From a virus: 21,473 bases of DNA. Where the stretch lies: IMG/VR virus record IMGVR_UViG_3300032157_000047, positions 1-21,473 of that record; one strand, 5' to 3'. Made by a program: the position numbers and the translations under genes. This document shows positions 16,158-21,473 of the stretch, piece by piece. The first letter of the stretch is position 1; every line of letters begins with the position of its first letter. A model generated the notes under the pieces. That model saw only the letters and a list, made by a program, of their open reading frames with translations, made no database searches and was not told the origin of the DNA.

Positions 16158-17699
16158 TCACGCGAAGTCGCAGCCGATGCGAGTAACGCCCACTGGCAGG
16201 TTTCCCCACGCGCCCATGTCGACCACGCTGCCGCCCGTGGTGCCGTCAGAGCGGCCGGCGTTGAGTGCGCTTGACGTCGCAGCGAGTCGAAAACGGTTCG
16301 CGAAGGTGCCGGTCTGCGTGAACATCAGCGCCGTGTTCTGCGAGGACTGCACGGCGTGCGCCTCGACGAGTGATGTGGAAATGCCGCCTGCGGCCTGCAC
16401 TGCTGCGGCCATCGTGGCAAGCGAGCTGTGCTCGCCGCCAGAGTCTGGCCCGTATGTCGAGTCCGAGAGCAGGCGCCACCGCGAGCCTGTGTTCGGATAC
16501 CAGTTGTAGTCGACGAGCCCAGGCGCCAGCGGGTTAAACGAATGCATCTTCCGCTCGAAGATATTCATGCCGCCGAACATGATGTTATTGAAGCTGCGCG
16601 ACTGGCCGGCGATGTTAGAGTTCACCGCAAAGCCGATGTGCGGGTTGTTGCCAGGACTCAAGGCGTAAACGGTGTTGTTGTGGATGTAGATCGGGTCTTT
16701 CATCGGCGTGCGCGAGGCGCCGCTGCCGAGAGTTGCGTGCATGGCGATGCCGCCGCCCGCGACGTTGATCACGTTGTTGCGGATGTAGGTGATAAGCCCA
16801 GTCGCCGCGATCGGGCTCACGCCACCGACCCAGTCGGCAATGCCGACCGTGTTGCGCGTCTCCTGGACGTAGTTGTATTCGCAGACGAAGCCAGGACTCG
16901 GGTATTCCTTGCCGTAGATTCCGCTCGCCTGGACGAACGTGTTGTAGCGGATCGTGGTGTTGCGGCTGTACCAGCAGATGAGGCACGACAGATGGTCAGG
17001 CGTCGTAGGGCTCCACGAGATGATGTCGTGGATGTAGTTGTTCTCAATGAGCAGATTGTCGGTGTTGAACGTCTGGATCGGACAGATGTTCGCGCCGTCA
17101 GCGGCGTAGTTGCCGCCGTTGTTGTTGGCCTGCGCGTCGTTGCAGTCGAAAAGCTCGCAATTGATGATCGCGCAGTTCGCGTAGCCGAAGCCGGTGTTGG
17201 GGCCTTCGCCGATGCGGATGAGCACGGTCTGCTCGCCGGACATGCGAAGGCCGTCGAAAATGATGTTGCCGGCGGTGACGCCCACCGTGTTGGCGAACAC
17301 GCCGCCCTCGTGCGGCTGGTGGAATCCGTTGAAGATGCCGCCCGACTTGCTGCCGGTGTAGGTGCCGCCAGGCGTTTTCGCCGTGATGTGCGCGCCGCGC
17401 GGGTTTACCGACTTGATGATGGTCGGCGAGAGCGCCGAGCCACCTGCGATGTTGAACAACGGAACCGCAAATGGTCTCGTCGGCGCATTGAGCGCGCTCA
17501 CGTCATAGGTGCCGTCGAGGAAGCCGACCGTGCGGCCGGCGTACGTCGCGCGCTTGGTGGTGAGTGCGGTGATCGCCCAGGGCTGCGCTTCGGTGCCGGG
17601 ATTGCTATCCGACCCATTGGGGCCGATGTAGTAGTCGATCGCCGCCGCTACGGGGAAGAGCCCGATCGCGTCTCGTGCGCGAATTGCGAGGCCGACCAT
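16158..17699 (-). CDS. Right-handed beta-helix protein (spike or pectate-lyase-like)
   Basis: A 513-residue protein. Residues about 22-41 (DYYIGPNGSDSNPGTEAQPW) are the standard entry to pectate-lyase-like right-handed beta-helix proteins, followed by ITALTTKRATYAGRTVGFLDGTY and then many short turns with Asn/Gly at regular spacing (LLIENNYIHDI, TTIRYNTFV, TYIRNNVINVAGGGIAM, PIYIHNNTVYAL). These are beta-helix coils. The family includes polysaccharide lyases and phage depolymerases; no catalytic site can be assigned. It lacks a gp17-like particle-binding domain, so it may attach through a neighbour (the 149- or 341-residue proteins). CCGGAGG lies 6 bases upstream of the ATG. Receptor binding or capsule degradation is inferred. 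Confidence 0.8.
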   Translation of the reverse strand: MVGLAIRARDAIGLFPVAAAIDYYIGPNGSDSNPGTEAQPWAITALTTKRATYAGRTVGFLDGTYDVSALNAPTRPFAVPLFNIAGGSALSPTIIKSVNPRGAHITAKTPGGTYTGSKSGGIFNGFHQPHEGGVFANTVGVTAGNIIFDGLRMSGEQTVLIRIGEGPNTGFGYANCAIINCELFDCNDAQANNNGGNYAADGANICPIQTFNTDNLLIENNYIHDIISWSPTTPDHLSCLICWYSRNTTIRYNTFVQASGIYGKEYPSPGFVCEYNYVQETRNTVGIADWVGGVSPIAATGLITYIRNNVINVAGGGIAMHATLGSGASRTPMKDPIYIHNNTVYALSPGNNPHIGFAVNSNIAGQSRSFNNIMFGGMNIFERKMHSFNPLAPGLVDYNWYPNTGSRWRLLSDSTYGPDSGGEHSSLATMAAAVQAAGGISTSLVEAHAVQSSQNTALMFTQTGTFANRFRLAATSSALNAGRSDGTTGGSVVDMGAWGNLPVGVTRIGCDFA

Positions 17700-19825: not shown

Positions 19826-20740
19826 TTACCGGCACCAGATGCGGATGACGCGCTCCTTCTCGAGCCGCGTCGCGCCGCCGGTCATCATCACGTACGCCTG
19901 CCACGGCAGGCCCTTCAGGTCCTTGCGCTGGCTGATGTCGGTGACCTGGCTCTGCCAGGTGCCGTAGTACATGCCGCGCTTCACCCACAGCGGCACCATG
20001 GTCGAGGTGCCTGCCGCATCGTCGGTGCCGGTGCCGAGCAACTGGGTGTGACGGATCTTCGTGCCGAGGAACTCGGTCACCTTGCCGTTCACCAGCACCG
20101 GCTTGTCGTTGAAGTCGAGCGAGGTCACCTGGATCTCACCGAGCAGATCGTCGTGCTCGTTCGCGGTCACCGCCATGTACGGATCTTCTCCGTCATCGAG
20201 GGCGACATCGTTCTCGCGCAGGCGACGCAGGCCTTCGCGAAACTTCGGAATGTTGAGGCCGGAGGCGGCGCCGCCGACGCCGACCGACACGTTCTGGCCC
20301 GACGCCGTGGTGAGCGCGGTGCCGAAGGTCTCGGTCGTGCCGGCGTTCACACCGGTGAGCGAGTCGGCGAAGAAGCCGGTGATGATGTGCCGATCCTTGC
20401 GGCGATTCACCGCGAAGTGCGCGTTTTCCACGTACTTCGATTTCGGATCGGTGAGGAGCTTCAGTGCGTCGAAGGTGTCGAGCAGCTGCGGCAGGTCCGA
20501 GCTGATCGGGAACACCCAGCGCCGGGATGCGGGGCTGTCGACACGACCGATCGGCTCGAAGCGACCGATGATGTCCTGCATCTCGATCTTGCCGATCTGA
20601 TCGACGGGGCTTGCCTTTTCTCCCGAGTGGTTGCCGGTTTCGACCCAGTTGCCGAAGCGGCTGTTTTTCTGCTGAACCAGAAAGTCGATATTGCGAGAGA
20701 ACTCGGTGAAGTAGTGGCTTGGGACGTTGACGCCGGACAT
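19826..20740 (-). CDS. Major capsid protein
   Basis: A 304-residue protein starting MSGVNVPSHYFTEFSRNID at ATG 20740, preceded by CGGAG at 8 bases; a GTG 9 bases earlier is in frame but less likely as it falls at the ribosome site. Features typical of the proteobacterial podovirus capsid family (HK97 fold by inference): SRFGNWVETGNHSGEKASPVD near the N-terminus, GRVDSPASRRWVFP, an N-arm to P-domain region with DRHIITGFFADS, and the C-terminal DLKGLPWQAYVMMTGGATR followed by RVIRIWC. It follows a scaffold-like gene and precedes small decoration-type genes. It has a long, repeat-bearing leader, consistent with very high expression. Confidence 0.87.
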   Translation of the reverse strand: MSGVNVPSHYFTEFSRNIDFLVQQKNSRFGNWVETGNHSGEKASPVDQIGKIEMQDIIGRFEPIGRVDSPASRRWVFPISSDLPQLLDTFDALKLLTDPKSKYVENAHFAVNRRKDRHIITGFFADSLTGVNAGTTETFGTALTTASGQNVSVGVGGAASGLNIPKFREGLRRLRENDVALDDGEDPYMAVTANEHDDLLGEIQVTSLDFNDKPVLVNGKVTEFLGTKIRHTQLLGTGTDDAAGTSTMVPLWVKRGMYYGTWQSQVTDISQRKDLKGLPWQAYVMMTGGATRLEKERVIRIWCR

Positions 20741-20782
20741 AGATAGCACTCCGAAAAACGGTGGATTCGCGTTTCTCGAAGG

Positions 20783-20941
20783 CCTTGTCCGTGAGGGGGC
20801 GCTTCTTCCCGGTTACGCCGAGCAGGCGGAGGTCTTTGCCTCAGTCAGTCGGGGAAGGTCCTTCCTTGTCGACGATCGGCGCGCGGCGCTTGCAGTGCTT
20901 TTCGCCCACCAGGCGGATGTCTTTCCATCAGTCAGTCGGGG
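20783..20941 (-). repeat. Tandem 87-base repeat with conserved hairpins
   Basis: On the - strand the first unit starts at 20941 and the second at 20854. Both begin CCCCGACTGACTGA. Next comes a small hairpin: GATG-GAAAGA-CATC in the first, GAGG-CAAAGA-CCTC in the second, where a U-A pair is replaced by G-C. A second hairpin CGCC-(5)-GGCG is kept in both. Units align without gaps for about 52 bases, then the second lacks 6 bases before a shared GACAAGG. A third partial piece (GTCGACAAGG) lies just upstream. Confidence 0.65.
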
Positions 20942-21002
20942 CGCTTGACCTTGTCGACTTGTGGCGCAAGGTGCACACCACGAGATACGAGGTCAAGCCC
21001 CC
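20938..21002 (-). repeat. Long inverted repeat upstream of the capsid gene
   Basis: Arms GGGGGCTTGACCT (21002-20990) and AGGTCAAGCGCCCC (20951-20938) can pair over 13 base pairs with one bulged base. The 38-base interior can itself pair GTGGTG with CGCCAC (one G-U). The late motif begins inside the first arm. No T-run follows, so it is not a typical intrinsic terminator; an RNA element or a DNA-binding dyad is more likely. Confidence 0.6.
20981..20996 (-). promoter_or_regulatory. Late motif, copy before the capsid gene
   Basis: TTGACCTCGTATCTCG on the - strand differs from the other two copies by one base in the first 14 (C for T at position 5). It begins 21 bases after the scaffold-like stop codon and about 255 bases before the capsid ATG. 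Like the others it is the first element after a gene end. Candidate promoter for capsid transcription. Confidence 0.5.
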
Positions 21003-21017
21003 GACGTTTCCCTGACC

Positions 21018-21473
21018 CTACGCCGCTTCCGCGATCGGGCCGAGCTCGTCGACTTTCTTCAGGTAGTCAGCTTCGCTCATCTTGCCGTCAGCACGAGCCG
21101 CGCGGGCCGCGTCGAGCTGCTCACGGGCTTGGGCCTTGGTTACCTTGCCGGTGCCATCGCCCTTGGTGAAACCGGCCTCGCCGAGTTTCGCGCCGAGCGA
21201 CTGAAAGGTTTTCAGCATGTCGGCGGTACCGAAGGCCTGCTCGTAGCGGGCGATCTTCGCATCGTCCCAGCCGGATGCCTTCATGAACCTGCGCGCTTCC
21301 TCGGATTTCTTGTCGAAGTCGCCGCCCCACTCGCCCTTGAGCGCGCCCAGCTGCTTGTCGCTGTCGGCCTTGAGTGCTGCGTCGGAGGTCTTGACGATCT
21401 CGGCGATGTGCGCGTTCCACTTCTCGGTGAGCTTGACCGCGTCGGACTTGCTGATGCCGATCTCGTGGAACCA
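21018..21473 (-). CDS. Scaffold-like capsid assembly protein, N-terminus outside window
   Basis: The frame is open to the window edge, giving 151 C-terminal residues. They start at FHEIGISKSDAVKLTEKWNA and continue through LKGEWGGDFDKKSEEARRF, DDAKIARYEQAFGTADMLK, FQSLGAKLGEAGF and a charged helical tail ending ELGPIAEAA. This pattern (helical, acidic/basic, with the LKxEWG and xLGxKLGExGF motifs) is typical of proteins encoded directly before podovirus capsid genes and annotated as scaffold or capsid assembly proteins. Scaffolds line the procapsid interior and leave on maturation. An internal ATG at 21284 is not the start. Portal and terminase genes are expected further right. Confidence 0.75.
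   Translation of the reverse strand, partial: WFHEIGISKSDAVKLTEKWNAHIAEIVKTSDAALKADSDKQLGALKGEWGGDFDKKSEEARRFMKASGWDDAKIARYEQAFGTADMLKTFQSLGAKLGEAGFTKGDGTGKVTKAQAREQLDAARAARADGKMSEADYLKKVDELGPIAEAA

Follow-up and report, generated by a model that had tools for sequence, protein, structure and literature searches.

The leader that precedes the capsid (MCP) gene of HTVC010P-type podoviruses is probably a conserved cis-regulatory RNA that acts as a translational switch, a reading to which we assign a probability of roughly 60%. Computation shows that the leader is conserved and covaries at the RNA level, that it occurs exclusively before MCP with one copy per phage genome, that the Shine-Dalgarno (SD) sequence of MCP covaries with an anti-SD strand inside the leader, and that sequestration of the SD is the predicted default. 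In the proposed ON state, an aptamer-like fold of four helical elements (P1–P4) would trap the anti-SD, leaving the SD free so that capsid is made. In the proposed OFF state, the anti-SD would pair with the SD and, together with P5, form one long hairpin in which the SD is hidden and no capsid is made.

The MCP leader and its genomic context

The DNA analysed here (the window) is the 21,473-nt IMG/VR record IMGVR_UViG_3300032157_000047, which represents a podovirus with an integrase. On its minus strand, an intergenic gap of 277 nt (20741–21017) lies between the end of a scaffold-like ORF at 21018 and the MCP start codon, and this segment is the 5′ untranslated leader of MCP (Table 1). The initial annotation had described 277 non-coding bases ahead of the capsid gene, and the gap that it located is real, although the minus-strand orientation went unmentioned.

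In most loci, the stop codon of the scaffold gene lies ~20–220 nt 5′ of P1, and in the loci of relatives this TGA is often overlapped by TTGACA. The −35-like sequence of the window itself is accompanied by a poor −10 (CACCTT); TTGACA/T occurs near the corresponding place in relatives, with TTGAC present in 21 of 69 upstream regions against 4.2 expected. Many of the leaders, though not all, probably start a transcript. A dedicated promoter was rejected as a general feature, as TTGAC is found in only about one-third of the leaders and the enrichment of the combined −35/−10 score is modest (17 versus 7.1). The −35-like region of the window also forms one arm of a 16-nt inverted repeat (20939–20954 and 20987–21002, 88% complementary) in which it pairs with, and would compete with, P1 copy 1.

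Table 1 Features of the MCP leader and its flanking genes in the window.
Feature	Position	Strand	Basis and remarks
MCP gene, 304 aa; leader-controlled in the proposed reading	19826–20740	−	phrog_3437, E 4.8e-50; PF19821 Phage_capsid_2, E 7.8e-55
MCP Shine-Dalgarno GGAG	20749–20752	−	Sequence; start ATG at 20740–20738
P5/putative OFF hairpin, CUUCGAGAAACG...CGUUUUUCGGAG	20749–20781	−	12 continuous pairs sequestering the SD; predicted MFE structure; stability versus shuffles
P4, GAAG-C-GCC-C-[CC UCAC GG]-ACAA-GGC-CUUC	20778–20805	−	AYAA/C loop with strands exchanged; 3′ strand is the anti-Shine-Dalgarno; covariation; A·C/G·U loop pair
P3 hairpin CUCGG-CGUAA-CCGGG	20808–20822	−	All five pairs show double changes; helix weaker in the pelagiphage sequences
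P2 hairpin GAGG-CAAAGA-CCUC	20829–20842	−	Conserved AAAGA loop; double changes in each of the 4 pairs; pairing in 98.5% of cells
Conserved UGAC linking P1 to P2	20844–20847	−	uGaC as the consensus of 99 sequences
P1 of the full element, GUCG-ACAA-[inner hairpin]-C-CGAC	20848–20873	−	Asymmetric AYAA/C internal loop; covariation; R1 match 20770–20874, 115.5 bits, the window being itself an R1 model sequence
P2 copy 1, GAUG-GAAAGA-CAUC	20916–20929	−	Repeat comparison and R1 match
P1 copy 1, GUCG-ACAA-[GGUCAAGCGCC]-C-CGAC	20935–20958	−	R1 match 20898–20959, 43.0 bits, P3–P4 part absent
−35-like TTGACC, candidate promoter of the MCP transcript	20991–20996	−	17-nt spacer; weak −10 CACCTT at 20968–20973; tentative
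Scaffold-like gene	21018–21473	−	ORF just 5′ of the MCP leader

Architecture of the element

In the sense of the mRNA, the element consists of P1, UGAC, P2, P3, P4, P5 and the SD, in that order. The consensus of P1 comprises a stem, AYAA, an inner hairpin, a single C and the returning stem, and that of P4 comprises GAAG, 1–2 nt, GGC, a single C, an inner hairpin, ACAA, GCC and CUUC. P3, for which compensatory variants occur in loci L071 and L004, is connected to P4 by a joint of the AAGAAG or AUGAAG type, and P5 ends at or near the SD. In the window, the P5 hairpin is extended by a bulged U and three further pairs (GGC/GCU), out to positions 20784 and 20745. The joining and bulge nucleotides are strictly conserved in the 99-sequence alignment.

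In HTVC010P-type pelagiphages (L015, 1354–1461; L136; and L012, 1349–1457), the UAG stop codon of a small upstream ORF falls inside the P2 loop, and the P1 region overlaps the end of this ORF so that ribosomes would translate through P1. An upstream stop codon within the RNA was discarded as a general feature, because an ORF scan that considered the longest ORF only returned L045 alone.

Conservation and fixed position among relatives

Searches with MCP yielded 8, then 80, and then 80 viral loci together with 6 genome loci, each set of 80 being the best 80 of more than 500 IMG/VR loci per scan; among annotated phages, 26 MCP relatives were found, most of them HTVC010P-type pelagiphages. Because a MAFFT alignment of 13 mixed sequences (A2) shifted UGAC by one or two columns, the first covariance model (R1) was built from seven close leaders (A3) with a hand-derived structure. 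R1 matched 66 places in 474 kb and thereby added ~60 further leaders. All of the matches lay directly 5′ of MCP, except for partial 5′ copies in the window and in L002 and a chance-level match (E 0.65) inside the MCP gene of L095. The second model (R2, 27 sequences) reached the homologous place in HTVC010P (E 2e-3) and in Lederberg EXVC029P (E 3e-4) in a 31-kb search. The third (R3, 84 sequences) yielded alignment A8 with 99 of 100 sources, the E-values of which are non-independent since many of the sequences trained R3 or are close to those that did. R3 missed Skadi-3, HTVC100P, Baldr, ctHz2215 and Alteromonas phage ZP6; by eye, the leaders of Skadi-3 and HTVC100P are similar to the element and that of ZP6 is dissimilar.

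A DNA pattern that describes P4 only and is blind to MCP occurred in 34 contigs, and MCP lay downstream in all 27 that were checked, so that the pattern matches as well as the model matches place the element at a fixed position relative to one gene, as is typical of cis-regulatory RNAs. An exact 23-base pattern spanning UGAC and P2 found nothing in viral contigs. Whole phage records contained one match each in 13 of 17 cases and none at threshold in the other four. Conservation of the leader among relatives, on which the initial annotation had staked its proposal, was thus seen with the models and with the pattern scan.

Covariation of the paired positions

The covariation that had been anticipated for this leader was strong already in the seed aligned with MAFFT only. 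In this set of seven leaders (A3), 96.4% of the cells were paired compared to 80.6% after shuffling, and double changes occurred in 25 cells compared to 8.3; in alignment A4, the corresponding values were 94.7% versus 65.1% and 376 versus 98 cells. In the 99 sequences of A8, double changes were present in all 24 modelled pairs and 91.6% of the cells were paired versus 60.8% after shuffling, with the reservation that covariance-model alignments lean toward the modelled structure. The covariation score of A8 was 0.766, compared with 0.209 for shuffled alignments and at most 0.137 for slid controls. When columns were ranked by mutual information with average-product correction, the 15 strongest couplings were all pairs of the model. 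The leader therefore has the covariation-supported secondary structure expected of a conserved cis-regulatory RNA, and the base-pair covariation argues against its origin as a decayed coding sequence.

Twin internal-loop modules in P1 and P4

One and the same AYAA/C internal loop occurs in P1 and, with its strands swapped, in P4; in each, the single C lies opposite the first A of AYAA. In alignment A7, this loop pair is A·C in 53, G–C in 15, G·U in 8 and A·U in 2 sequences for P1 (Fisher 6e-4, ignoring phylogeny), and A·C in 59, G·U in 10 and G–C in 6 sequences for P4 (Fisher 1e-8, likewise ignoring phylogeny). An A·C pair is isosteric with G·U if it is protonated, and, given the exchange between the two in these sequences, the loop A·C of P1 and P4 looks like a true pair. 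In a GUAG/U clade, a change is also seen in the final base of the loop and the assignment of the partner is not unique; in this clade the P1 and P4 modules change together (column pair 10–231).

Among 17 MCP relatives that the models missed or matched weakly, a P4-type module was found in 15 and both modules, in order, in 13, against 0.38 expected, and the twin modules are therefore the most persistent part of the element. They would form the recognition site of the proposed switch. Six loci (L028, L039, L066, L073, L080 and L095) have reduced leaders in which P2 and P3 are unrecognisable and one or both AYAA/C modules are kept.

Pairing between the anti-SD and the SD

The SD region of MCP is complementary to AAGCCCUUC, the 3′ strand of P4. 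The anti-SD of a leader pairs with its own SD at −9.57 kcal/mol and with swapped SDs at −8.68 kcal/mol (p ≤ 5e-5 by permutation within GC bins, a value that, like all such p-values here, is optimistic because the sequences share ancestry). Seven further segments of 12 nt, taken from these leaders as controls, did not covary with the SD. The variant strand AAUCCCUU of L102 is matched by the variant SD AAGGGAUU and the variant strand AACCCCUU of L055 by the variant SD AAGGGGUU, and the pairing GGC-CUUCG/CGGAG-u-GCU of the window has its counterpart in GCC-CUUCG/CGGAG-u-GGC of L058. The pairing is weak in L057, L072, L101 and L061. In a divergent subgroup (L067, L082 and L087), GAAAGCCC by eye forms the end of P4 and GAGGCUUUC the SD region, apparently an independent version of the pairing.

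P5, which lies between the anti-SD and the SD, has a mean energy of −4.3 kcal/mol versus −1.6 kcal/mol for shuffled sequences, and since it fills the space between them, the three are predicted to form one hairpin. The SD-paired fold is the predicted energy minimum in 30 of 30 leaders, and freeing the SD costs 9.0 kcal/mol compared to 5.3 kcal/mol when the leader sequence upstream of the SD is shuffled, all of these being secondary-structure energies that leave out tertiary contacts. It may therefore be that the P1–P4 fold usually prevails and that the hairpin hiding the SD is minor. Because the 3′ strand of P4 is itself the anti-SD, P4 and the SD-sequestering hairpin are mutually exclusive. 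The leader in this way combines two hallmarks of translational riboswitches: an aptamer-like conserved domain (P1–P4 with its conserved unpaired nucleotides) and, as computed, an expression platform of exclusive helices, one of which hides the SD.

A proposed model for the control of capsid translation

Since the covarying P1–P4 fold leaves the SD free and is predicted not to form unaided, we infer an ON switch. A bound partner would stabilise P1–P4, free the SD and start capsid synthesis, and such switching would be expected to take place in infected cells. Candidate partners are a metabolite, a phage protein such as the scaffold, or a host protein. At somewhat less than even odds, the leader represents a new class of phage RNA, resembling riboswitches, in which two copies of one loop module sense a metabolite or phage protein and the RNA times capsid synthesis during infection.

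A structured but constitutive 5′ UTR, with P1–P4 always folded, the SD open, the 5′ end protected and capsid expressed at a high, unregulated level, would satisfy the need of capsid genes for high expression. It would also be in keeping with the ends of P4 and P5 near the SD and with the promoter-like TTGACA before many leaders, which may put the fold at the 5′ end of the mRNA. We nevertheless regard it as unlikely, since the SD/anti-SD covariation, the above-chance sequestration of the SD and the strict conservation of joining and bulge nucleotides would all be left unexplained. Repression by the capsid protein itself or by the scaffold, either of which would bind the leader and block translation, appears less probable still. 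The leader does lie between the scaffold region and MCP in the examined loci, and post-transcriptional control of morphogenetic proteins occurs in other phages; however, several phages have a small ORF between scaffold and MCP, and the conserved fold contains P4, which frees the SD, so that a protein binding to this fold should activate. For the same reason, the simple feedback suggested in the initial annotation, in which capsid or scaffold protein binds the hairpins, fits poorly. Its broader idea of a cis-acting RNA controlling capsid translation agrees with the conserved leader and the strong covariation; the central part given there to the duplication does not hold.

The leader is structured, would be among the first parts of a long late operon to be transcribed and often follows a promoter-like site, which might also suggest a put- or nut-like antiterminator, a nascent RNA by which RNA polymerase is modified ahead of the tail genes downstream. 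This is improbable, as the covariation ties the leader to the SD of MCP and the leader is always near the MCP start. We give very little credence to processing of the capsid mRNA by a self-cleaving ribozyme: single-stranded nucleotides are strongly conserved, but no Rfam family, ribozymes included, was matched at the gathering threshold in the loci searched.

If the translational switch is real, capsid production in HTVC010P-type phages, among which is an abundant marine lineage, would be gated by an RNA switch and not by promoter timing only. The leader is a defined RNA, present in isolates, in which the signal for making the phage shell can be sought. It also serves as an MCP-linked RNA marker for the HTVC010P-type group, and it offers an internal loop with an A·C mismatch exchanging with G·U at two places.

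Comparison with known RNA families

When the window, 18 relatives and 5 pelagiphage loci were searched against Rfam 15, no family reached its gathering threshold, which bears out the earlier statement that the leader matches no nameable RNA family. No description of the leader was found in a library of open-access papers. We call it a new RNA family working like a translational switch; a riboswitch proper would need a ligand.

Translational riboswitches whose expression platform sequesters the SD, such as SAM-III (SMK box, RF01767), are similar in that access to the SD depends on a strand for which the conserved fold competes with an alternative helix. SAM-III does not match in sequence or structure (12.3 bits in L030 versus a gathering threshold of 45), and the leader differs from it in its predicted ON sense, its phage capsid gene and its twin internal loops. 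Leader RNAs of ribosomal proteins are likewise structured 5′ leaders of highly expressed genes for structural proteins, with autogenous translational control in their case, but no such Rfam family was matched and the target of the phage leader is MCP. The best sub-threshold Rfam match in the window was DUF2693-FD RNA (RF02926), which has a CUGAC stretch in common with the leader; the match reached 15.7 bits versus a gathering threshold of 44.5 (E 1.9), and the family is a short motif of 49 positions without P1–P4. The leader of T7 gene 10 is, like the present one, a hairpin-bearing leader before a podovirus capsid gene, and we know of no covarying switch of this kind for T7.

The tandem repeat of the window

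The 87-base repeat on which attention had originally centred was recovered as a direct repeat of 42 nt with 86% identity and a spacing of 87 nt (20813–20854 and 20900–20941); a further direct repeat in the leader spans 26 nt (73% identity, 85-nt spacing). The compensatory change from U–A to G–C reported for the first hairpin is present between copies 1 and 2 (Table 1), and this hairpin is the conserved helix P2, in which all four pairs covary. The second reported hairpin (CGCC/GGCG) found no support among relatives and was replaced by P3, the conserved helix at that place in the comparative alignment.

The repeat does not extend beyond P1, UGAC and P2 in the 5′ part of the element, and the part from P4 and P5 to the SD is single-copy; copy 1 of the window comprises P1, UGAC and P2 without a working P4. 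Beyond the window, a two-copy leader was found only in the close relative L002 (88% MCP identity), and the leaders of L003, L004, L058 and L071 are single-copy. Duplication was dropped as a functional principle since most relatives have one copy, and it is a lineage-specific local extra rather than the essence of the leader. Measured from ACAA to ACAA, the two P1 copies lie 85 nt apart, and P1 and P4 within the full element lie 81 nt apart; as a speculation, these distances would fit recombination between ACAAG motifs.

Other features of the window

Directly after the integrase gene (114–1145), a segment on the reverse strand (1163–1205) resembles the 3′ half of a tRNA, judged by eye to be tRNA-Ala; ARAGORN found no whole tRNA there, and the segment is likely an attachment-site remnant. 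Adjoining the integrase on the plus strand is a glycosyltransferase family 25 gene (1369–2190; PF01755, E 1.4e-20), which may serve in lysogenic conversion or belong to flanking host DNA. A right-handed beta-helix protein that may be a tailspike or depolymerase is encoded on the minus strand at 16158–17699; its Pfam match, which is Pel9A-like, is weak (E 7e-6).
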